In this document: piece after piece, positions 1 to 10,991 of the stretch
Layout: each line of letters opens with the position of its first letter
Position numbering within the stretch: the first letter of the stretch is position 1
Assembly: GCA_002293545.1 (NCBI GenBank)
Contig: DBDL01000066.1
Span: forward strand, 1 to 11,552
Direction: 5' to 3'
DNA from: Lachnoclostridium sp. UBA933
GTDB lineage: Bacteria > Bacillota > Clostridia > Lachnospirales > Lachnospiraceae
Length of the DNA: 11,552 nucleotides
The notes under the pieces: model-generated
What the model saw: the letters and a program-made list of their open reading frames with translations, nothing else
What the model was told of the DNA's origin: nothing
The model's database searches: none
Made by a program: the position numbers and the translations under genes

Positions 1-280
1 TTTTTTTTGCCGCCGTAAAAAGCTCGGTTACAAATTCGATTTGGAGTAACGGTTCTCCGCCTGATACGGTGATTCCGCCGTTTTTCAGGTAGGGAAGATA
101 ACGGTCATATTGGGTTAGGAGTTCGTCCGTACTTTTGTTTGTTCCGGTCCCAAATGCCCATGTGTCCGGATTGTGGCAGTATTTGCAGCGGAGCGGACAG
201 CCTTGCAGGAATACGACGAAACGGATTCCCGGACCATCTACGGTGCCCATTGTTTCAACGGAATGAACGATGCCTGTCAT
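1..280 (-). CDS. pflA: Pyruvate formate-lyase activating enzyme (partial, N-terminal 93 residues)
   Basis: Radical-SAM enzyme that installs the glycyl radical on PFL using S-adenosylmethionine and a 4Fe-4S cluster. The translation shows the activase N-terminus: an ETMGTVDGPGIR stretch (residues 9-20), the cluster motif CPLRCKYC (Cys28, Cys32, Cys35; CxxxCxxC), and the SGGEP radical-SAM motif at 73-77. The reading frame is open to the left edge, so roughly the last 60% of the protein lies outside. The ATG follows directly on the TAA of the small glycyl-radical gene, with a weak AGGA ribosome site inside the last codons of that gene. Translation is therefore probably coupled. Its place next to PFL fits the usual pfl-act operon. 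The identification is secure. Confidence 0.95.
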   Translation of the reverse strand, partial: MTGIVHSVETMGTVDGPGIRFVVFLQGCPLRCKYCHNPDTWAFGTGTNKSTDELLTQYDRYLPYLKNGGITVSGGEPLLQIEFVTELFTAAKK

Positions 281-523
281 TTATAAGTCCTGATGAAAGG
301 TTCTTGCAATCACTTCGTCCTGCTGCTCTTTTGTCAATTTGTTAAAGCTGACGGCGTATCCGGATACGCGGATTGTTAATTGCGGATATTTTTCGGGATG
401 TGCTTGTGCGTCCAGTAACGTTTCTTTTGTAAAGACATTAACATTCAAGTGATGACCGCCTTGTTCGCAATAGCCATCCAATAACTGTACAAGGTTATCC
501 ACTTGCCGGTCTGATGCAATCAT
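281..523 (-). CDS. Stand-alone glycyl-radical domain of pyruvate formate-lyase (80 aa)
   Basis: This small protein corresponds to the extreme C-terminus of PFL. It has the [10 protein letters not shown] segment (residues 9-18), HHLNVNVF (24-31), [17 protein letters not shown] (42-58) and the [14 protein letters not shown] tail. Gly55 in RVSGYA is the predicted radical site, equivalent to Gly734 of E. coli PflB. It starts at an ATG directly after the TAA of the large chain and in the same frame. An ideal AGGAGG at 532-537, 8 nt upstream and inside the large chain's last codons, shows that it is translated on its own. It resembles E. coli GrcA/YfiD in idea but is shorter. Here it is probably an essential subunit and not a spare part, because the neighbouring large chain has no radical domain. 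The next gene is the activase. Confidence 0.9.
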
Positions 524-2629
524 TTAATCTTCCTCCTCATATTTTATGGGTATTTTACATGCGATATCCGGACCGCATGCCGCTAATTGATCCAAATCAA
601 TCTGACCGATAAATACATGGTCTTCTTTTCCCAGTGCACCCGGCACAATCGAAAAGGTATTGGAAATACCGTCCATGGCATACCGGAACGGCAGCTTGGC
701 AACGGAAGCAAGTGACGCCAGTGCTCCGCTTGTATCCCTTTTGTGCATCGGATTGGCTCCGGGTGCAAAGGCTTCTCCCATTTTTCTTCCGTCCGGTGTA
801 TTTCCGGTTTTCTTTCCATACATGATATTGGAGGTTATCGTTAATATGGAGGCTGTCGGAACACTGCCCCGATAAGTGTAATGTTTCTTTATCTTTTCAA
901 GAAAAGTTCGTATCAAATCGACAGCCAAACTGTCCACCCGTTCATCATCATTCCCGTACTTCGGAAAATCTCCCTCGATTTCATAATCGGTTACAATGCC
1001 GCTTTCGTCACGAACCACTTTCACTTTCGCATATTTAATGGCGCTGAGTGAATCTGCGACAACGGAAAGACCTGCGATTCCTGTTGCAAAGTAGCGTAGC
1101 ACTTCACGGTCATGAAGTGCCATCTGGATACTCTCATAGCAGTATTTATCATGCATATAATGAATCACGTTCAGCGTATTTACATATAAATTCGCCAGCC
1201 AATCCATCATGTCGTCATACTTGGACATTACATCATCAAAATCAAGAATATCCCCTTTGACCGGACGGTATTCCGGTCCTACCTGCTGTTTTGTCAGCTC
1301 ATCCACCCCGCCGTTAATCGCGTAAAGCAAACACTTTGCCAGATTTGCCCTTGCCCCGAAAAACTGCATTTCTTTTCCGATACGCATCGAGGATACGCAA
1401 CAGGCAACGGCATAATCATCTCCATGCGTCGGGCGCATTAAATCATCATTTTCATACTGAATGGATGATGTTTCAATTGACATCCGGGCGCAATACCGTT
1501 TGAATGACTCCGGCAGGGAAACCGACCATAAGACAGTCAGGTTCGGTTCCGGTGCGGAACCGAGATTCGTCAGTGTGTGTAAATAACGGAATGATGTTTT
1601 TGTCACCATATGATGCCCGTCCACCCCGACGCCGCCGATTGATTCTGTCACCCATGTGGGGTCACCGGAAAACAGGGTGTTGTATTCCGGCGTTCTGGCA
1701 AATTTAATCATTCTGAGTTTCATGATAAAATGATCAATGTACTCCTGTGCTTCTTTTTCCGTAATAATATTATTGACTAAATCCCTTTGAATATATACAT
1801 CCAAAAAGGTTGAGGTACGTCCAAGACTCATCGCCGCACCGTTTTGTTCCTTTACAGCGGCTAAGTAGCCAAGGTACAGCCACTGTATTGCTTCTCTTGT
1901 ATTTTTCGCCGGTTTTCTTATGTCGCATCCGTAAATATCGCCTAATTCAATCAGCCGCTCCAGCGCATTAATCTGCTCCTGAAGCTCCTCACGCAATTGA
2001 ATGGTCTTGGGTACCATTCTGATAAGCGCCGTCGCCAACTGGTGTTTTTTATTGTCAACAAGGTATTCTGCGCCGTATAAAGCAACACGCCGGTAATCAC
2101 CGATAATCCTTCCCCGTCCGTATGTGTCGGGAAGCCCTGTTATAATTCCTGATTTTCTTGCCGCTTTCATTTCGGGGGTATAGACATCAAATACCCCTTG
2201 ATTATGCGTTTTCCGATAGGATGTAAATATTTTGGTTACGTTTTCATCTACTTGATATCCGTATGCTTCACATGCCGCCTGCGCCATCCGAATCCCGCCA
2301 AATGGCTGTAATGCACGCTTTAAGGGTTTGTCTGTCTGTAAGCCTACGATCTTTTCCAGACTTTTATCAATATACCCGGCTTCATGAGAGGTAATGGTCG
2401 AAATTGTTTCCGTATCCATATCAAGGACACCGCCGTTTCTATGTTCTTCCTCAAATAAAGCACTTACTTTTTCCCATAATTTTTTTGTATCGGAAGTGGG
2501 CGGTTCCAAAAAGGATTCATCACCGTCATACGGTGTTATATTTCTTTGGATAAAATCACGTACATTGATAGAATTGCTCCAACGTCCAAGTTTAAATCCT
2601 TCCCATTCTTTTTGTCTTTTATTGGTCAT
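524..2629 (-). CDS. pflB: Formate C-acetyltransferase large chain lacking the glycyl-radical domain (701 aa)
   Basis: Catalytic part of pyruvate formate-lyase (pyruvate + CoA to acetyl-CoA + formate), cytosolic and central to anaerobic sugar fermentation. Similarity to E. coli PflB runs almost full length. Landmarks are [22 protein letters not shown] (165-186), the catalytic Cys-Cys pair at 410-411 (AVACCVSSM), [11 protein letters not shown] (422-432), MHDKYCYES (492-500) and [10 protein letters not shown] (659-668). After GALGKED a normal PFL continues straight into the radical domain. This chain instead carries about 31 extra residues (two Cys, ending KYEEED) and stops at TAA. The radical domain follows as a separate gene. 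The start has a weak purine-rich GGAAAGG ribosome site and a strong promoter about 50 nt upstream. The family is certain; the split form is the unusual part. Confidence 0.95.
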
Positions 2630-2677: not shown

Positions 2678-2705
2678 ATTATAAAGGAAGCCGCCTTTTT
2701 GTCAA
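2678..2705 (-). promoter_or_regulatory. SigmaA promoter of the pfl operon
   Basis: On the minus strand TTGACA (2700-2705) and TATAAT (2678-2683) are separated by 16 nt. Both boxes match consensus perfectly. Transcription should begin near 2671, about 40 nt before the pflB ATG. I saw no clear Rex or CRP-type operator, so this looks like a strong, possibly constitutive promoter. Confidence 0.85.
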
Positions 2706-2973: not shown

Positions 2974-3141
2974 ATGGCATATACTATTTCTGATGAATGC
3001 ATAAGTTGTGGTGCTTGTGCCGGCGAGTGCCCGTTTGAGGCAATTTCCGAAGGAAGTACACATTATGAAATCAATGCAGATGTTTGTCAAGACTGTGGTG
3101 CTTGTGCTGAAACATGCCCGACAAGCGCAATCAATTCATAA
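2974..3141 (+). CDS. 2[4Fe-4S] clostridial-type ferredoxin (55 aa)
   Basis: Small soluble electron carrier with two cubane clusters. Two CxxCxxCxxxCP motifs are complete: Cys9, 12, 15 and 19 followed by Pro20, and Cys38, 41, 44 and 48 followed by Pro49. The two halves show the internal duplication typical of clostridial ferredoxins, and 55 residues is the normal length. A strong AAAGGAGG (AGGAGG at 2961-2966) sits 7 nt before the ATG at 2974. An in-frame GTG just before is only 4 nt from it, so ATG is preferred. The gene stands alone between its own promoter and a terminator, divergent from the pfl operon. In this host it could serve pyruvate or hydrogenase electron transfer; its partner cannot be read from the sequence. 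Confidence 0.96.
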   Translation: MAYTISDECISCGACAGECPFEAISEGSTHYEINADVCQDCGACAETCPTSAINS

Positions 3142-3463: not shown

Positions 3464-4027
3464 TTATGCAGATACTTTCTTACGGAAACTGATTAGCGTA
3501 ATTGCTTCTATTAACACTCCATTTACCGCTATAATCGCCATATCAATATTATAAACCGTCAGAAACGAAATCACTGCCAATAAGATAAATATTACGACCC
3601 GGCTTCTCTTTTTAAAGATAATGTATTCTTCCGGGGAAAACGGTCTGTTTTCACATGCCAGCGGGGCAAATTTGTAAACAAGAATCACGGATACAAGTCC
3701 CGCTAAAAGTATATGGAAAACCATGAAACGTTCCGGCATATAAATCCCCAAAAAGATTCCGGATAAACTCATTGATAAGTATGCTAAAAAACAGTAAAAA
3801 TAATTAGGGGCATGGTGTCCGCCTCCGGACATGCGAAGCGCTCCATAAAATATCATAAATATTATCATTTCACTGAAAATCCCAAAGACGGCAGCCGCCG
3901 CCAAAATAAATACGCCATTTATAACCGTTGATAACAAGGATTCACAGCCGTAAATCAATGTGTCGGTATCAAGTTTACTTGTGCTGCAAAATTTATGTAC
4001 AATATTCCTGCTCACTTGATAAATCAT
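3464..4027 (-). CDS. agrB: AgrB-family membrane peptidase that matures the autoinducer peptide (187 aa)
   Basis: AgrB is an integral-membrane cysteine peptidase. It removes the C-terminal tail of AgrD and forms the cyclic thiolactone. The catalytic pair is present in GGGHHAPNYFYC: His72 and Cys79, seven residues apart as in S. aureus AgrB (His77/Cys84). Several hydrophobic membrane segments follow, and the length fits the family (about 190-200). I place the start at 4027 because GGAGG lies 7 nt upstream; a 17-codon extension to 4078 would run into the -35 box. No AgrD-type gene adjoins it. The likely substrate is the agrD product encoded at 8593-8736, whose promoter has the same operator. Transcription probably ends in the palindromes or the terminator at 3177-3230. 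Confidence 0.92.
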   Translation of the reverse strand: MIYQVSRNIVHKFCSTSKLDTDTLIYGCESLLSTVINGVFILAAAAVFGIFSEMIIFMIFYGALRMSGGGHHAPNYFYCFLAYLSMSLSGIFLGIYMPERFMVFHILLAGLVSVILVYKFAPLACENRPFSPEEYIIFKKRSRVVIFILLAVISFLTVYNIDMAIIAVNGVLIEAITLISFRKKVSA

Positions 4028-4049
4028 GTTCTTTCCTCCGTTAAGGCTA

Positions 4050-4078
4050 TTATTACAATAAAAAATCATTTGTGTCAA
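4050..4078 (-). promoter_or_regulatory. SigmaA promoter of agrB
   Basis: TTGACA (4073-4078) and TAATAA (4050-4055) with 17 nt between them, about 20-25 nt before the agrB start. The short leader holds only the GGAGG ribosome site. Confidence 0.75.
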
Positions 4079-4144: not shown

Positions 4145-4651
4145 TTATCTGATTTTTCGCTTTTCATTTATCCGTCCAATCCGCCATACTGCCATCGGAT
4201 GATTGGCAATCCGGTCAACCGTATCCTTATTCTCAAAAAGTAGCTGCGGTTCGTAACGACCCGTTGAAAATCGCTGTAAAAAGGCAGTTTCTCTTTCATT
4301 CAGATTCATCAGCTCGAATAAAAAAAGCGACACACGTTCTTTTGCCGCAGTAAAGTCGAACTGTTCCGCATGGCGTATCATGGGATATAATTCGGCTTTG
4401 ATTGTCCTTTCCGTAATCCGGGTCATCTTATCAAAATGAAAACCCTGCGCAGTTGTATCCCCGGCAATTGCAAAATACAAGGCGGCACATTTTCGCAATA
4501 GCGTCAGGTCTGTTTCATCAAATAATCCGAAATATATCATATTGTTCAAATCATATAGGTCACGGGCGGCGGCTCTGCTTGACAATACCACGATTTTACT
4601 AGCAAATTCCTTTGCCTTTCTGCTCAGTATGAGTTTGTCATAATTCGGCAT
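4145..4651 (-). pseudogene. AbiEii-type nucleotidyltransferase toxin, N-terminally truncated (168 aa)
   Basis: The sequence matches the C-terminal half of AbiEii/AbiGii-family toxins: a KEFASKI helix and the RAAARDLYDLNNMIYFGLFDE block (residues 26-46), ending NHPMAVWRIGR. Full-length relatives are roughly 280-300 residues. They begin with a nucleotidyltransferase core bearing GS...D and D-x-D catalytic residues, and none of that is present here. The ATG overlaps the antitoxin gene by 14 nt, the usual abiEi-abiEii coupling. An in-frame loss of about 110-130 codons just after the original start would explain both the conserved overlap and the missing core. It is probably inactive as a toxin. 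It could instead be a protein retained for another use, since the frame is open. Confidence 0.7.
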
Positions 4652-5414
4652 TTCCCTCTGCTCCTTTCGTCGTCAGGTTCATCAGATTTTCAGGCGTGAT
4701 CAATTGCCATTCTTTATTATAAATACCGTTTTCACCGGTGATAAGATAGCGGGTACTTTTTCCGATGTAGGCGGCACATTCGGAGAAGAAAGCTTCGCTT
4801 AAATGAAACTCCTTTTGAAAATGCCGCAGGATATAGCCCGTTTTCTGATACAGCACTTGTTTTTTATATAAAGCAAGATAGGCAAGCAGTCTGTTTTCTT
4901 TTACTGATGGCAGAAGTGCCAGACAGCGCAAAAGCTCCTCCAGCCCCATGACTTTCTCAAAATCGTTGATACCGTCCAGCACTGTGCGTTCCGTATCCGT
5001 TACCCGGACACCGTCGGGACGCGTTACAATACCATCCGTTATACGGGAAGCCAAATAGACATAGGTATTGCCGCCAAAGCCAAAGGGAGTAAACGACGTT
5101 GCGGAAGAAACCTCTATCTGATAGGATACCTGATTAGCACAGCCGTAATAATCAAATGCCGCATGATGCGATGCATAAGAGGATGGGGTGATCTCTCCGG
5201 CGATACGGAATTTACTTACTACAGGCTCATCATCCGCTAGATTGACGGCAACATATAGATTGCGTCTAACCTTACGGACATAGCCTTTTTGTAAATAACG
5301 CTTTAGCAGTGTTCCTGCCGTATTGTAATTGCCCGTGAGTTCGGTTAAGTCTTCCCTTGTAAAACAACCTCGTGTCAATAAATCACTGTAGTATTTTATC
5401 TTCCGCACCTCCAA
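4638..5414 (-). CDS. AbiEi-type antitoxin/transcriptional repressor (up to 258 aa)
   Basis: Resembles AbiEi-family antitoxins of type IV toxin-antitoxin/abortive-infection systems. It has an N-terminal winged-helix part (residues about 6-60, with CFTREDLTELTG and a YLQKGYVRKVRRNLYV wing), then a central part with SSYASHHAAFDYYG (78-91) and VTDTERTVLDGINDFEKVMG (139-158). Such proteins repress their own operon and neutralise the AbiEii partner encoded immediately downstream with a 14-nt overlap. The start is problematic. The only standard start codon, TTG at 5414, lies 5' of the GGAGG site (5407-5411). The codon 8 nt after that site, where relatives begin MKYYxDLL, reads ATA (5397-5399). The gene may therefore be poorly translated. 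Its promoter lies inside repeat copy 1. Confidence 0.78.
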   Translation of the reverse strand: MEVRKIKYYSDLLTRGCFTREDLTELTGNYNTAGTLLKRYLQKGYVRKVRRNLYVAVNLADDEPVVSKFRIAGEITPSSYASHHAAFDYYGCANQVSYQIEVSSATSFTPFGFGGNTYVYLASRITDGIVTRPDGVRVTDTERTVLDGINDFEKVMGLEELLRCLALLPSVKENRLLAYLALYKKQVLYQKTGYILRHFQKEFHLSEAFFSECAAYIGKSTRYLITGENGIYNKEWQLITPENLMNLTTKGAEGNAEL

Positions 5415-5826: not shown

Positions 5827-6882
5827 TTATCTTTTTTTCGACAAGTCAATACGGAACATACGGCAATAATCCTTTTGCGCTTCAATTTCACATTCTGAAA
5901 TAAGCTGTAAGAATGCTTTGTCGCTCGGATTTTTGCTTTTCTGTGCCGCCTGCAATGTGCCAATGTACTCCATACGTAATATCGGCGGTATTGACACAAT
6001 CTGATACCCTTTATTCACAAGGATAAGGTTCATCATAAGCCTTGCAGTGCGTCCGTTTCCGTCCGTAAAGGGATGAATATCGACAAGTCGCCTATGGGCA
6101 AATGCTGCCAATACAACCGGATGCAGTGTTTCTTTTTTATCGTTTAATTCAGAAACAAATGCGTTCATCAGCTCCGCAACCACGGAAGCCTCCGGCGGCA
6201 GATACTCGGTTCCTGTAATAAAAACCTGATAGGTGCGATATTTTCCTGCATTTTCTGCGTCAAGACTGCTGTAAAACAGCTTGTGTAGGGTCAATATCAT
6301 TTCTTCGGAAAAAACAAGATTTTCGGCACGAGCGGCGGAGAGCATGAAATCATAGGCCTTTGCATGTCCCGTCGCTTCGCAGCAGTCCTTCAATGGCTTG
6401 CCGCCCACGGTTATGCCGTCTTCAATGATAACCTTTGTTTCACTGATTGTCAGCGTATTACCTTCAAGGGCGTTCGAGGTATAGGTAAGCCCTATACGAA
6501 AATAATCATCAAGCTCTTTTATTTCTTCCATTGTGAGTGGCCTGCGGCTGTCAATGACCGCCTTGTATTCGTCAATTTTCTTTAAAAGGGCAGTGGGTTC
6601 CATATGCTTTCCTCCATTTATATTATCGGGTATGGTTTCAAACGCTTTATATTCGTTGCTTTTCAGAATAAAATCAGGTTCCTTGCCGAGCGCAACAGCT
6701 ATTTTGATTAGAAGATCAAGCGATGGATTTTGTTCGCCCCGTTCAAATCTGGCTAAATTAGAACGTTGTATATGAAGCCTTTTTGAAAGAGCTTCCTGCG
6801 TCAGTTTTTGCGTTTTTCTTTCAGCCACCAACAAACGGACAATATCCTGCCTTATTTTGATATAGCTTTCTGTGCTATCCAT
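5827..6882 (-). CDS. XRE helix-turn-helix/Fic-domain fusion protein (351 aa)
   Basis: Fic enzymes transfer AMP or another phosphate-containing group to target proteins. The N-terminus (about 15-75) is an XRE DNA-binding domain (LTQEALSKRLHIQRSNLARFERG). The C-terminal part holds the complete Fic motif HPFTDGNGRTAR (270-281). An inhibitory-helix motif of the (S/T)xxxE(G/N) type, SNALEG (136-141), precedes it, so the enzyme is probably self-inhibited. The start at 6882 has GGGAGG 6 nt upstream and lies below its own promoter. The frame extends to 6951, but that would cross the promoter. A second perfect GGAGG site sits 7 nt before Met94 (ATG 6601-6603). Fic alone (258 aa) may therefore also be made. 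The XRE part probably represses the promoter through the palindrome at 6905-6926. The gene stands alone between the two 279-bp repeats. Confidence 0.92.
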   Translation of the reverse strand: MDSTESYIKIRQDIVRLLVAERKTQKLTQEALSKRLHIQRSNLARFERGEQNPSLDLLIKIAVALGKEPDFILKSNEYKAFETIPDNINGGKHMEPTALLKKIDEYKAVIDSRRPLTMEEIKELDDYFRIGLTYTSNALEGNTLTISETKVIIEDGITVGGKPLKDCCEATGHAKAYDFMLSAARAENLVFSEEMILTLHKLFYSSLDAENAGKYRTYQVFITGTEYLPPEASVVAELMNAFVSELNDKKETLHPVVLAAFAHRRLVDIHPFTDGNGRTARLMMNLILVNKGYQIVSIPPILRMEYIGTLQAAQKSKNPSDKAFLQLISECEIEAQKDYCRMFRIDLSKKR

Positions 6883-6904
6883 AAAATCCCTCCCAATATT
6901 CATT

Positions 6905-6933
6905 ATTGTACCATAAATGATACAATAAATCAA
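6905..6933 (-). promoter_or_regulatory. Promoter and palindromic operator of the XRE-Fic gene
   Basis: TTGATT (6928-6933) and TACAAT (6905-6910) are 17 nt apart. A near-perfect 22-bp palindrome spans 6905-6926: arms ATTGTAyCAT and ATGrTACAAT around a 2-bp AT centre. It covers the -10 box and most of the spacer, a classic position for repression. The XRE domain encoded just downstream is the obvious candidate to bind it. Confidence 0.75.
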
Positions 6934-6951
6934 CAGCAGGAGGACTATCAA

Positions 6952-7714: not shown

Positions 7715-8332
7715 TTATGATTCATCCGAAGTATATGTATGCTTTTTTTCTTTTGATTTCGGAAAAAGAAAATGGTACAGAAACATTGTGGTAAAATATC
7801 CTGCCATTCCTCCTATCGTGTTCAGTAATAAATCATCAAAATCCATGCTTCTGTATGTATACCCTAACATAATACTATATATCCCTTGAATAATCTCAAT
7901 GGAAAGGCTTGTTATAATACATATTAGGATCGTTTTAAAAAAACTTCTTTGGGTTTTAAATAACAAAATATTAAGACTAAAACCATAAGGTACAAAGATT
8001 ATAATATTTCCAATCAACTGATACCAAAATACAGAAGTGTACCCATTTACTGCGCTTTTGATGTAACCGATTATACTTTTGAACGGGACAAGATTATTTA
8101 CCTGTCCAAGTTCATTTTTAATATTGGATTCTATCTCACTTGGTACGACAGGAAACGGGAAAAAAACAATAATAAAGATTATTATTAATGAAATGAGTGT
8201 TATTCTGTATCCTATAAAGACTGCCGTTCTTTTTTTGGTATTGACAAAGCCGGTCATACCAATTCCTAAGATGGTCATCCCTATTATTGTAAAATGCAAT
8301 AAAATCATTGTGGGTAAAAGATATGTTACCAC
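7715..8332 (-). CDS. VanZ-family membrane protein (205 aa)
   Basis: VanZ-like proteins are small multi-spanning membrane proteins. The founding member gives low-level teicoplanin resistance, and most others have no proven role. Family signs are NLVPF (residues 80-84), GNIIIFVPYG (108-117), SIEIIQ (144-149) and the R-x-x-DFDDLLLNTIGG block (161-175), with about five hydrophobic segments. I choose GTG 8330-8332 as the start because a perfect AAGGAGG lies 6 nt before it. A longer open frame to 8473 would translate through a terminator hairpin and T-box-like leader and looks non-coding (charged, no membrane character). It lies downstream of agrD on the same strand, so it may be co-expressed with the quorum-sensing system. 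Confidence 0.85.
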   Translation of the reverse strand: MVTYLLPTMILLHFTIIGMTILGIGMTGFVNTKKRTAVFIGYRITLISLIIIFIIVFFPFPVVPSEIESNIKNELGQVNNLVPFKSIIGYIKSAVNGYTSVFWYQLIGNIIIFVPYGFSLNILLFKTQRSFFKTILICIITSLSIEIIQGIYSIMLGYTYRSMDFDDLLLNTIGGMAGYFTTMFLYHFLFPKSKEKKHTYTSDES

Positions 8333-8363
8333 TGTATACCTCCTTGATAACACTTCATTACAT

Positions 8364-8504
8364 AAAACTGCCAATCCGAAACCGGTATTCCATACCACTC
8401 CGGACCGGCAGCTCCGCGGTACCATCCTATTTACATTCTCTGTGTTTCCCCGCTCTGTAAATATGGTTAGCACCTTAATTTATATTAAATCCTTACTCTC
8501 TTTT
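8364..8504 (-). promoter_or_regulatory. T-box-like leader with antiterminator/terminator upstream of the VanZ gene
   Basis: On the minus strand AGGATGGTACCGCGG (8414-8428) closely matches the T-box consensus AGGGTGGNACCGCG, where uncharged tRNA pairs. GGA and CGG can pair with the following CCG and TCC to make the antiterminator with its TGGTACC bulge. The same CTGCCGGTCC strand instead opens a long hairpin (8368-8411, closing with GGATTGGCAG) followed by TTTT, which acts as terminator. This mutual exclusion is the T-box design. A TTTACA/TGTAAA stem (8430-8461) precedes it, and an AGAGAGTA element lies near 8494-8501. Only about 65 nt separate that element from the T-box motif. A normal specifier Stem I of about 100 nt is therefore missing or shrunken, and the amino acid cannot be read. 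Confidence 0.55.
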
Positions 8505-8592: not shown

Positions 8593-8736
8593 TTATGATT
8601 TTTTTAGATTCCTGAGATGCTCCGGTACTTTAGGCTGACCGAATAAAAACATACATGATATACTTGACGTTTTTTTTGCTGTTGTGTAAAATACGGTTTC
8701 AGTGAATTTCCCCATTTTCTTTTTTAACACAATCAT
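8593..8736 (-). CDS. agrD: AgrD-type autoinducer peptide precursor (47 aa)
   Basis: Precursor of a cyclic thiolactone signal. It shows the three-part AgrD plan: a basic amphipathic leader (MIVLKKKMGKFTETVFYTTAKK), a core around Cys28, and a charged tail GQPKVPEHLRNLKKS that AgrB would remove. The tail's xQPKxPE pattern is typical of clostridial AgrD proteins. The predicted ring is Cys28-Met-Phe-Leu-Phe32 (five residues), similar in character to the Listeria ring. The ATG at 8734-8736 has a GGAAAGGA ribosome site. An in-frame GTG at 8790 lacks one and would add an atypical extension. The gene follows agrC and has its own regulated promoter with a leader of about 140 nt. Confidence 0.85.
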   Translation of the reverse strand: MIVLKKKMGKFTETVFYTTAKKTSSISCMFLFGQPKVPEHLRNLKKS

Positions 8737-8882
8737 ATCTTCCTTTCCATGTAAGATTTTGACGAAAGTAAATGCATCATTTCCCACCACCGCTATTGCC
8801 GCAAGATTTATATATTGATTTATTCATAAAGCATTATGTTCCCCTTTTGTCGATAACAGTTTGATTTCACACTTTTTAAGAG

Positions 8883-8976: not shown

Positions 8977-10272
8977 TTATTTCTTAGGAAAGCTCAATAT
9001 GGCAGAAAAAAGTTCCTCCGTTACTTCAATATCCAACGTTCCGTCATATTTATTCATAATGCTTTCCACACTTTTTAAACCAAACCCGTGTTTCTTTTTG
9101 TCTTTCTTTACTGTACACAGCTTTCCTTTTTCCATCACGACTTTTCCTTGATAGGTATTTTCAATAATAATGATATTACAGCTCTTGTGAAGTAATAATT
9201 CAAGTGAAATCCGACGTTTCTTGTTTTCAATCTTTCTTACCGCTTGAAATGCATTTTCTAACACATTACTTAAAACGATGTTCAAATCGCCATCATAAAT
9301 TGATATGTCAAGCTTCCCCTGCAATTCTATGTTAAAATCAATGTTTTCTTCCCTTGCCTGTTTACTCATTTTAATCAATGTAGTGGAGGTAGCCGGATAT
9401 TTCTCAATATAACCTTTCGTAAAATCTTCAACACCATCTTTAATTCCATTAAAATAATCAACGGCACTTTCATACAAATGATTATCGAGCATTGCTCTCA
9501 GCGTCTGTAAATGAAAACGGTAATCATGTTTCAGCATTCTCAATTCTTCAATCATAACCTTGATATTTTCTTCATAATCTTTTTTCAATTGATTCTCCAA
9601 ATTAATCAGTGCATTTGATTCATTTTCTTTTGCTATGCTTTCCATTTTAAAAATCATAAAAAATAAAAAAACAAAATACAACACTATAAAAGCAAAAAAG
9701 TATATCAGGTAAAAGTTTGATATTGTTTTGTACTCTGCCAATCTTATATATAAAATCGAAGTATTAAACATGATTCCCGCCGTAACAATCAAAAAGATAA
9801 ACCGAAATGAATGGAATGACTGAGCCAAACTATCTCTGAATTTTTTCGTTATACTAAACGCACATATATATTCCAGCAATTTTGACAAGACAACAACAAG
9901 AACTGCTATGATATCATCTTTTTCCGCGATGTCACTTATCTGCCGCCCTGACAAAAGCGACATCACATTTACGGCAACAATTTCACTTATGAAAATCAAC
10001 CCAATTAACATAATGGTTACAAGAAAATTACCTATCTTTCTAACATAAAAAATGCATACAAAAACAGTCACGAGGATGAATATAACAGGAACCGAAATAC
10101 TATTATTTGTAATAAAATGCGAGCAAAGCGTTATTACAATCCCCCAAGTCAATACAAACAAAAGACTGCTCCCTTTTTGATTCCAGCGCCTTGTGCAAAA
10201 CCGTGACGCAATCATAATAAGGATATAGGCATCAAAAATATTCGTAGCTAAACTCACCAAAAAAAATATCAT
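8977..10272 (-). CDS. agrC: AgrC-type sensor histidine kinase with GHKL ATPase (431 aa)
   Basis: Membrane receptor for the autoinducer peptide. Residues 1-210 are strongly hydrophobic, with about six membrane segments. A helical linker follows (211-245), then the phospho-acceptor region LRMLKHDYRFHLQ with His249 (HPK10/AgrC-like HDY). The GHKL ATPase has an N-box NVLENAFQA (Asn336, Asn340) and a G-box HGFGLKS (395-401). The length fits AgrC (about 430). The ATG overlaps the regulator's stop by 4 nt (ATGA), with GGAGG 8 nt upstream, so the two are translationally coupled. It lies directly upstream of agrD and is presumably the receptor for that peptide. Confidence 0.93.
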   Translation of the reverse strand: MIFFLVSLATNIFDAYILIMIASRFCTRRWNQKGSSLLFVLTWGIVITLCSHFITNNSISVPVIFILVTVFVCIFYVRKIGNFLVTIMLIGLIFISEIVAVNVMSLLSGRQISDIAEKDDIIAVLVVVLSKLLEYICAFSITKKFRDSLAQSFHSFRFIFLIVTAGIMFNTSILYIRLAEYKTISNFYLIYFFAFIVLYFVFLFFMIFKMESIAKENESNALINLENQLKKDYEENIKVMIEELRMLKHDYRFHLQTLRAMLDNHLYESAVDYFNGIKDGVEDFTKGYIEKYPATSTTLIKMSKQAREENIDFNIELQGKLDISIYDGDLNIVLSNVLENAFQAVRKIENKKRRISLELLLHKSCNIIIIENTYQGKVVMEKGKLCTVKKDKKKHGFGLKSVESIMNKYDGTLDIEVTEELFSAILSFPKK

Positions 10273-10991
10273 CGTTTATACCTCCAGTGATTTTTCCCAT
10301 ATCTGGCATATGCATTTTTGAGGTCCTTTAAATATTTGACCCCTATACTGATCGGAAAGGAGCATCCCAGCAGCGATACTTGATTTTCTTTATCCCTCAG
10401 CCTGAGGTCCAGTATCCTGCTCATATTAATCACAAACCCTTTATGACAGCGCACAAACGTATTATCCAGATAACCGACAACTTCATACAGCGTTCCGCGG
10501 ACTGTATGTTCACCGGTATCCGTCGAAATGACCAGGTTATCCCGTGATTTTTCAATATAAATTATGGATTTCATTCGGATATGAAGGTTATGATAATCAA
10601 AGTACGCCTCCTGCTCCTCGAATATGTTCATATACTCATCCAAGATAGAATAGGCATCCTCTTTTTCAATCGGCTTGATCACATAATGAAACGGGTGCGC
10701 CGTATATGCCTCCAGCATATATTTGTCGTGCCCGGTCAAAAACACAATCGCAACCGATTTGTCAATTGACCAGATCCGACGGGCTACCGCAATCCCATTC
10801 TGTCCATCCCCCATTTCAATGTCCAGAAAGATCAAAGAAAATTTTTCAGCATAAAAATCATTCAGTAATTCCTCTCCTGTACTATATTCACTGATTTCAA
10901 TCATAATCTGATTTTTTGAACTATAATTCAAAATGTATCTTTTCATTGAGTGCCTTATCTCTAATGAATCATCACAAACAGCCATTAACAT
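10269..10991 (-). CDS. agrA: LytTR-type response regulator, AgrA-like (240 aa)
   Basis: Cytosolic transcription factor with a receiver domain (1-120) and a LytTR DNA-binding domain (about 130-235). The receiver keeps the acidic pair Asp7-Asp8, phospho-acceptor Asp57 (FLDIEM), Thr86 and Lys106. The LytTR part shows YIEKSRDNLVI (145-155), TFVRCHKGFVINM (178-190) and FPISIGVKYLKDLK (212-225). The start ATG 10989-10991 has GGGGGAG 8 nt upstream; an ATG two codons later is less well placed. It forms a two-gene unit with the kinase. LytTR proteins bind paired direct repeats, so the repeat pairs before agrB and agrD are its likely targets. No strong promoter stands out in 10992-11065, and read-through from tyrS is possible. 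Confidence 0.93.
   Translation of the reverse strand: MLMAVCDDSLEIRHSMKRYILNYSSKNQIMIEISEYSTGEELLNDFYAEKFSLIFLDIEMGDGQNGIAVARRIWSIDKSVAIVFLTGHDKYMLEAYTAHPFHYVIKPIEKEDAYSILDEYMNIFEEQEAYFDYHNLHIRMKSIIYIEKSRDNLVISTDTGEHTVRGTLYEVVGYLDNTFVRCHKGFVINMSRILDLRLRDKENQVSLLGCSFPISIGVKYLKDLKNAYARYGKNHWRYKR

Follow-up and report, generated by a model that had tools for sequence, protein, structure and literature searches.

Does the locus at the start of contig DBDL01000066.1 encode a pyruvate formate-lyase (PFL) made of two chains, or only the remains of a broken gene? PFL has a central place in fermentation, including that of gut bacteria, and serves as the model one-chain radical enzyme. In the stretch analyzed here (the window, 11,552 nucleotides (nt) of Lachnoclostridium sp. 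UBA933, Lachnospiraceae), the catalytic chain ends before the radical domain and an 80-residue protein carries the glycine motif. We consider it very probable that the PFL here is assembled from separate chains, one forming the catalytic barrel and the other being an obligatory radical subunit of the GrcA3 family, whose gene adjoins that of the activating enzyme, PflA.

The locus reads on the minus strand, from a promoter-like site through the PFL chain, a TAA codon and the 80-residue protein to the start of pflA (Table 1). The catalytic chain scores 1100.8 bits against the TIGR01255 equivalog model, above the cut-off of 994.2, and covers positions 1–666 of the 744 in the profile; the small chain covers positions 663–744. 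The radical glycine, looked for as a test of membership, is absent from the catalytic chain, and the glycine motif occurs on the small chain only. The active-site residues C410 and C411 are unchanged in all 78 aligned split chains, and the nearest sequences in the PDB are 38lb_A, 38la_A and E. coli PFL (1h16). The small chain passes the cut-off of the NCBIfam GrcA3 model NF038360 (164.3 bits against 158), falls under that of the GrcA model TIGR04365 (98.2 against 170) and matches Pfam Gly_radical at positions 50–106. An earlier note, made from the letters of this DNA alone, had described these two open reading frames (ORFs), their coordinates and shared frame, the single TAA that the start codon (ATG) of the small gene immediately follows, and an AGGAGG ending 8 nt upstream of that codon, and all of this stands. 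It also reported some 31 extra residues on the large chain; the extension is real, but it measures 33 residues after ALGK668, and the note missed both the cysteine module within it and the separate protein that carries this module in other genomes.

Table 1. Features of the PFL locus in the window
Feature	Position	Strand	Remarks
pflA (activating enzyme), start	1..280	minus	directly 3′ of the small gene; leaves the contig
Radical subunit (GrcA3)	281..523	minus	80 residues; RVSGYA; Gly55 = codon 359–361
TAA stop between the two chains	524..526	minus	TGA in the second genomic copy
pflB catalytic chain	524..2629	minus	701 residues; Cys410–Cys411 pair; no radical domain
Added C-terminal tail of the catalytic chain, residues 669–701	527..625	minus	cysteine module C685...C691
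AGGAGG, ribosome-binding-site-like, for the small gene	532..537	minus	within codons of the acidic end of the large gene
Promoter-like TTGACA-16-TATAAT, upstream of pflB	2678..2705	minus	consensus match only

Is the break an accident? A second copy of the junction lies in the same assembly, at the end of another contig, C33 (L002 = G000:C33:1-1777), with grcA3, a complete pflA and TGA in place of TAA as the stop. The DNA of the two copies, aligned over 614 positions, differs at 102 (83% identity), while 78 of the 80 residues of the small protein are the same (98%), and the tail is identical in all 30 residues compared. The small gene shows 34.5 synonymous against 2.5 non-synonymous changes between the copies, a ratio of non-synonymous to synonymous rates (dN/dS) of 0.008, and its second copy scores 159.2 bits against NF038360. 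The genome is a bin of 92.6% completeness and 3.7% contamination, and the C33 copy may be a paralogue or come from another strain within it. Because this copy keeps a stop and the tail, and the small chain is under strong purifying selection, we conclude that the split is no accident. A chance nonsense mutation is ruled out by the same observations together with split relatives, and a frameshift by the single frame that the chains share around one TAA and by retention of the split in the second copy and in relatives; the earlier note had rejected the frameshift and called the chance mutation unlikely. The C33 copy is followed by a small ORF (L002:1012-1302), which we take to resemble DUF1858.

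The note also proposed looking for the same split in other genomes, and it is conserved. We scanned 391 genomes of the class with the GrcA3 model. Some match is found in 295 of them and one above the cut-off in 21, all 21 being short open frames of 78–106 residues; two further genomes (G192 and G202) have separate small chains that score under the cut-off. Among the matches listed, those that come next include a few shorter frames but are nearly all of about 730–840 residues, the length of a one-chain PFL. Named genomes, scanned as well, gave at least 80 loci, and the hosts belong to Lachnospiraceae, Oscillospiraceae, Erysipelotrichaceae, Atopobiaceae (Actinomycetota) and Spirochaetota, the last represented by metagenome bins.

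Gene pairs could be compared in 100 rows from three phyla, with start codons assigned by rule rather than from evidence. The spacer between the genes runs from −38 to 432 nt, and the two genes share a frame in 34 rows and lie in different frames in 66. The catalytic chain stops at TAA in 78 rows, TGA in 13 and TAG in 9. A loose Shine–Dalgarno (SD)-like motif precedes the small gene in 99 rows, VSGYA is found in 99 small chains (ISGYA in the remaining one), and 91 rows have a PflA-like frame on the strand of the pair, no more than 60 nt away in 71. Three other loci (L007, L123 and L128) have the small gene with no catalytic chain within reach. In L049 (G205), an in-frame TAA lies inside the catalytic chain near query residue 292, reflecting either a sequencing error or decay.

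A second question is whether the small chain serves an intact PFL encoded elsewhere. No full-length PFL, for which the earlier note had suggested a search, was found in this genome, which gives a single PF02901 match at the completeness stated above; the other Gly_radical matches are the second GrcA3 copy and NrdD, the latter assigned from an ORF adjoining an NrdG-like one. A full-length PFL1 occurs in 2 of 22, 2 of 13 and 1 of 36 other split genomes, leaving 66 of 71 without one, in a sample where the unnamed and named sets may overlap, some genomes are incomplete bins, and the assemblies of G154, G202 and G367 contain just part of the split catalytic chain itself. Split genomes that also have a full-length PFL include those of L061 (G360) and L062 (G255). 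Because those 66 genomes and this one show no full-length PFL, the small chain looks, as far as gene content can tell, like the radical subunit itself, an obligatory component rather than a spare part. The two-subunit enzyme proposed in the earlier note is supported by the conserved two-gene PFL; the likeness that it drew to GrcA holds for family and name and breaks down in that no PFL with its own radical domain was found here. Its further idea, that a detachable radical domain could ease activation or replacement after oxygen damage, is conjectural.

Two other readings of the junction can be weighed on this evidence. If the catalytic chain came from a pfl gene that has broken, with the small protein as a leftover or as an ordinary spare part for another, intact PFL, the two in-phase frames would be expected, since a nonsense mutation in a one-chain gene leaves just that, and five of the 71 other split genomes do have a full-length PFL. 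The strong purifying selection on the small gene, the unchanged tail, the spacers, SD-like motifs and mixed frames of the relatives and the lone PFL-like match in this genome all speak against such decay, and we regard it as very improbable. Alternatively, ribosomes might read through the stop and also fuse the chains, the enzyme working mainly as the fused polypeptide. The window and three other loci (L081, L106 and L112) are in phase with no spacer and would permit this; however, the stops of the two copies in this genome differ, and 96 of the 100 rows have a non-zero spacer and 66 have the genes in different frames. With only four rows in phase at zero spacer, general read-through was rejected and is unlikely as a mechanism for the family, and an enzyme that functions mainly in fused form is scarcely credible.

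How often the split arose was approached with a tree built from 138 catalytic cores (94 from split and 44 from one-chain enzymes); L113, L049 and L058 were too short to include, and two duplicates were removed. The tree needs three changes between the split and one-chain states. Ninety-three split rows group together, with two one-chain enzymes nested among them (L038 = G331, from the family of the window, and L039 = G327). These may be natural re-fusions; the genomes listed as matching the third ORF described below include neither of theirs. The remaining split row, L057 (G192), stands alone elsewhere on the tree and apparently represents a separate split event; its catalytic chain stops after LGKDD, with neither tail nor third ORF. 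In the approximately unbiased (AU) test, a single clade of all 94 split rows gives p 0.0501, and p 0.167 when L057 is left out, values that prove neither several origins nor the re-fusion of L038 and L039. Since the Spirochaetota and Atopobiaceae rows sit within the Bacillota rows, the tree suggests transfer of the split PFL between phyla.

The tail added to the catalytic chain carries a cysteine module. Among 96 tails following the ALGK-type motif, 67 have at least two cysteines, 29 have none and not one has exactly one; the number is two or three in all but one case, and the spacing varies. The motifs include DCACCEPN and CSNGACSTPTLFEGLD, and the window has a variant of its own. In a set of 94 rows, from which L049 and L113 are absent, each of the 24 spacers longer than 200 nt follows a tail that lacks Cys, and none of the 65 Cys tails has so long a spacer behind it. 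Long spacers pair with Cys-less tails because they hold a third ORF that carries the module, of 63–84 residues in 23 of the 24 and shortened in L090. The third ORF follows grcA3 instead of lying in the spacer in L042 (G151), and is also seen in L123. Counted by locus, the module lies in the Cys tail only in 67, in the third ORF only in 25, in both in none and in neither in 4. These counts omit L046 and L053, which duplicate the sequences of L089 and L083, and the partial chains L059 (G154) and L063 (G367); with the partial chains restored, L063 joins the third-ORF group and L059 has neither form, giving 67, 26 and 5 of 98.

The third-ORF protein (for example L142:5735-5953, and at 22 other loci) has a start like that of the radical subunit, paired cysteines and an acidic end. 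Its first part is a copy of the first ~30 residues of the radical subunit, including the strand that completes the barrel. This kinship is observed at several levels: the NCBIfam GrcA3 model matches five of six proteins at E 2.5e-4 to 0.08, hhalign aligns the third ORF with GrcA3 over 34 columns (probability 95.1, E 3.2e-08) and 20 of 23 proteins score higher than the best of 1150 shuffles. In 22 of the 23 measured, the cysteines lie 17–39 residues past the Asn of the strand; the radical Gly, counted from sequence, is 28 residues past it, and the cysteines therefore fall around its place. The last part matches the ends of Cys-tail catalytic chains (E 1.7e-5 for G107, for example). Start codons and SD-like sequences accompany many third ORFs but not all. 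Codon changes indicate that the ORF is under selection, with dN/dS of 0.03–0.07 in five of six pairs among four relatives and synonymous sites saturated in the sixth; the value for the misaligned L093/L101 was left out.

Beyond these loci, the third-ORF model finds some match in 87 of the 391 genomes, mostly weak and between its first part and radical domains, whereas strong matches (E < 1e-18) are confined to nine genomes, all within the 23 split genomes of the class scan. This genome gave no third ORF. A profile search returned 756 homologues at E <= 1e-3, and the 120 listed have no Pfam domain and are each named ‘hypothetical protein’ in their source. Apart from the weak GrcA3 matches, six members searched against NCBIfam and Pfam gave nothing better than E 0.045, and the profile found no meaningful match among PDB chains at E <= 10, a search that can miss distant kin.

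For the PFL of separate chains, we infer the following mechanism. The small chain would dock into the barrel, giving it the strand and glycine loop that a one-chain PFL holds in cis. PflA would place the radical on the glycine of the small chain, and the glycyl radical would take hydrogen from the active-site cysteine pair. The paired-cysteine module, in the tail here and in related operons on a third protein that begins like the radical subunit, may occupy or guard the radical-subunit site by its thiols, acting as a placeholder, redox switch or radical quencher.

Several accounts of the module compete. A thiol switch or placeholder, keeping the site of the radical subunit occupied and freeing it according to redox state, seems a fair candidate, if still short of probable: the third ORF has the barrel-completing strand and its cysteines fall around the place of the radical Gly, but the alignment supports no kinship past about column 34 and the strand copy is absent from the Cys-tail form. 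A bolder reading, which we put forward tentatively and with some doubt, makes the module a control subunit that has had no name so far: it would mimic the radical subunit but have a thiol pair where that subunit has its glycine loop. Either free, as the third small protein, or as part of the tail, such a dummy would contend with GrcA3 for the barrel or quench its radical, and redox state would switch the enzyme on and off with the chain left uncut. It is also conceivable, but rather unlikely, that two copies of the module pool their cysteines to bind a metal or an iron–sulfur cluster and stabilize the enzyme, as the small cluster-binding subunits of benzylsuccinate synthase (BSS) do. Cysteines that come in twos or threes and never singly across 96 tails would suit such a site, and the available part of PMC12590467 describes [4Fe-4S] accessory subunits of 7–10 kDa in BSS and hydroxyphenylacetate decarboxylase (HPAD). 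The two or three cysteines per tail (with one exception), their variable spacing and the result of the PDB search are less easily accommodated.

Some results weigh against the role that we give to the module. It is not universal, four of the 96 loci (L057, L061, L062 and L091) having neither form. The exclusion between Cys tails and long spacers is strong when rows are counted (Fisher p 8e-18, 94 rows) yet not independent of descent; only three independent pairs lie on well-supported branches (sign test p 0.5). The model of the last part beats all 670 shuffled tails for only 33 of the 67 Cys tails. Of the alignments behind the AlphaFold models, one had 77 of the 95 other split chains and none of the 44 one-chain enzymes, the second 10 of the 95 and all 44. 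The models give the tail a confidence score (pLDDT) of about 26–36 in the catalytic chain alone, with the tail and the last part of the barrel under 50, and of 37–47 with the chains tethered by a link that was imposed. The placement of the tail and its cysteines cannot be read from models of such low pLDDT.

Other features of the window lie around or beyond the pfl operon. The promoter-like site upstream of pflB fits 12 of 12 consensus positions, and 10 such sites occur in 3300 bases against 9.0 expected; no RNA element in the window reaches the gathering score in an Rfam scan. Divergent from the operon is a 55-residue ferredoxin-like ORF with two 4Fe-4S motifs (2974–3141, plus strand), at a guess a possible electron donor for PflA. 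The minus strand further encodes an agr-like quorum-sensing set of AgrB, a GHKL-type kinase and a LytTR regulator (within 3464–4078, 8593–8790 and 8977–10991), in which the 65-residue ORF at 8593–8790 has no Pfam match and is presumably an AgrD-type peptide precursor. An AbiEii/AbiEi-like pair (4145–5414) scores just below the Pfam cut-offs (20.5 against 22.5 and 24 against 25 bits), its AbiEii-like part spanning only the later portion of the profile. A Fic-domain protein with an N-terminal helix-turn-helix domain (5827–6951) and a VanZ-like protein (7715–8473; PF04892, 88 bits) are also on this strand.

The small chain of the split PFL already has a name in NCBIfam, GrcA3, and we recognized no paper on the split enzyme in a literature search that mostly did not extend to subscription journals. 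What appears to be new is the cysteine module of the tails and third ORF, for which we found no family or name in Pfam or NCBIfam and at which no paper search was aimed. In its available part, a 2025 paper still lists PFL among the single-polypeptide homodimeric glycyl radical enzymes and allows that there may be more accessory subunits not yet annotated (PMC12590467). In a natural two-chain PFL the radical domain can be added, removed or swapped without cleavage by oxygen, so that installation, transfer and repair of the radical become testable piece by piece, and the cysteine module marks a definite site at which built-in control by oxygen or redox state can be sought.

Compared with one-chain PflB (E. 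coli 1H16/2PFL; TIGR01255), in which the radical domain is held in cis, the enzyme described here has that domain as a separate gene product, an added tail and, in some relatives, a third ORF. GrcA (YfiD) and phage T4 Y06I are likewise small proteins with a PFL radical domain that act in trans with PflA, and YfiD/GrcA rescues E. coli PFL cut by oxygen, according to the portion of PMC8683613 that was available. YfiD has a disordered start of 60 residues, and in E. coli it backs up a PFL with its own radical domain, whereas the catalytic chain of the window has none; apart from the small chain, this bin gave neither a radical source for PFL nor an intact PFL to be rescued. The name of family NF038360, ‘autonomous glycyl radical cofactor GrcA3’, suggests a spare part, while the genome surveys suggest an obligatory subunit, and the description of the family may already say so. 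Two recent PDB entries named ‘Formate acetyltransferase’, 38la and 38lb, are not among the matches of the radical subunit. The first ends right after LGKED and the second continues for ~50 residues without a radical domain; judged by their sequences, both seem to be PFL chains without that domain, and either could be a cut construct. BSS and HPAD are also glycyl radical enzymes with small extra subunits, and BSS-beta influences thiyl radical formation, as stated in the accessible part of PMC12590467. What sets these accessory subunits apart is that they are [4Fe-4S] proteins, in which we know of no radical-domain-like start. Class II ribonucleotide reductase uses adenosylcobalamin and is not known to have a detachable glycyl radical domain. 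Its split form in Pseudomonas aeruginosa is also a radical enzyme in two chains (PMC4520616, seen in part).
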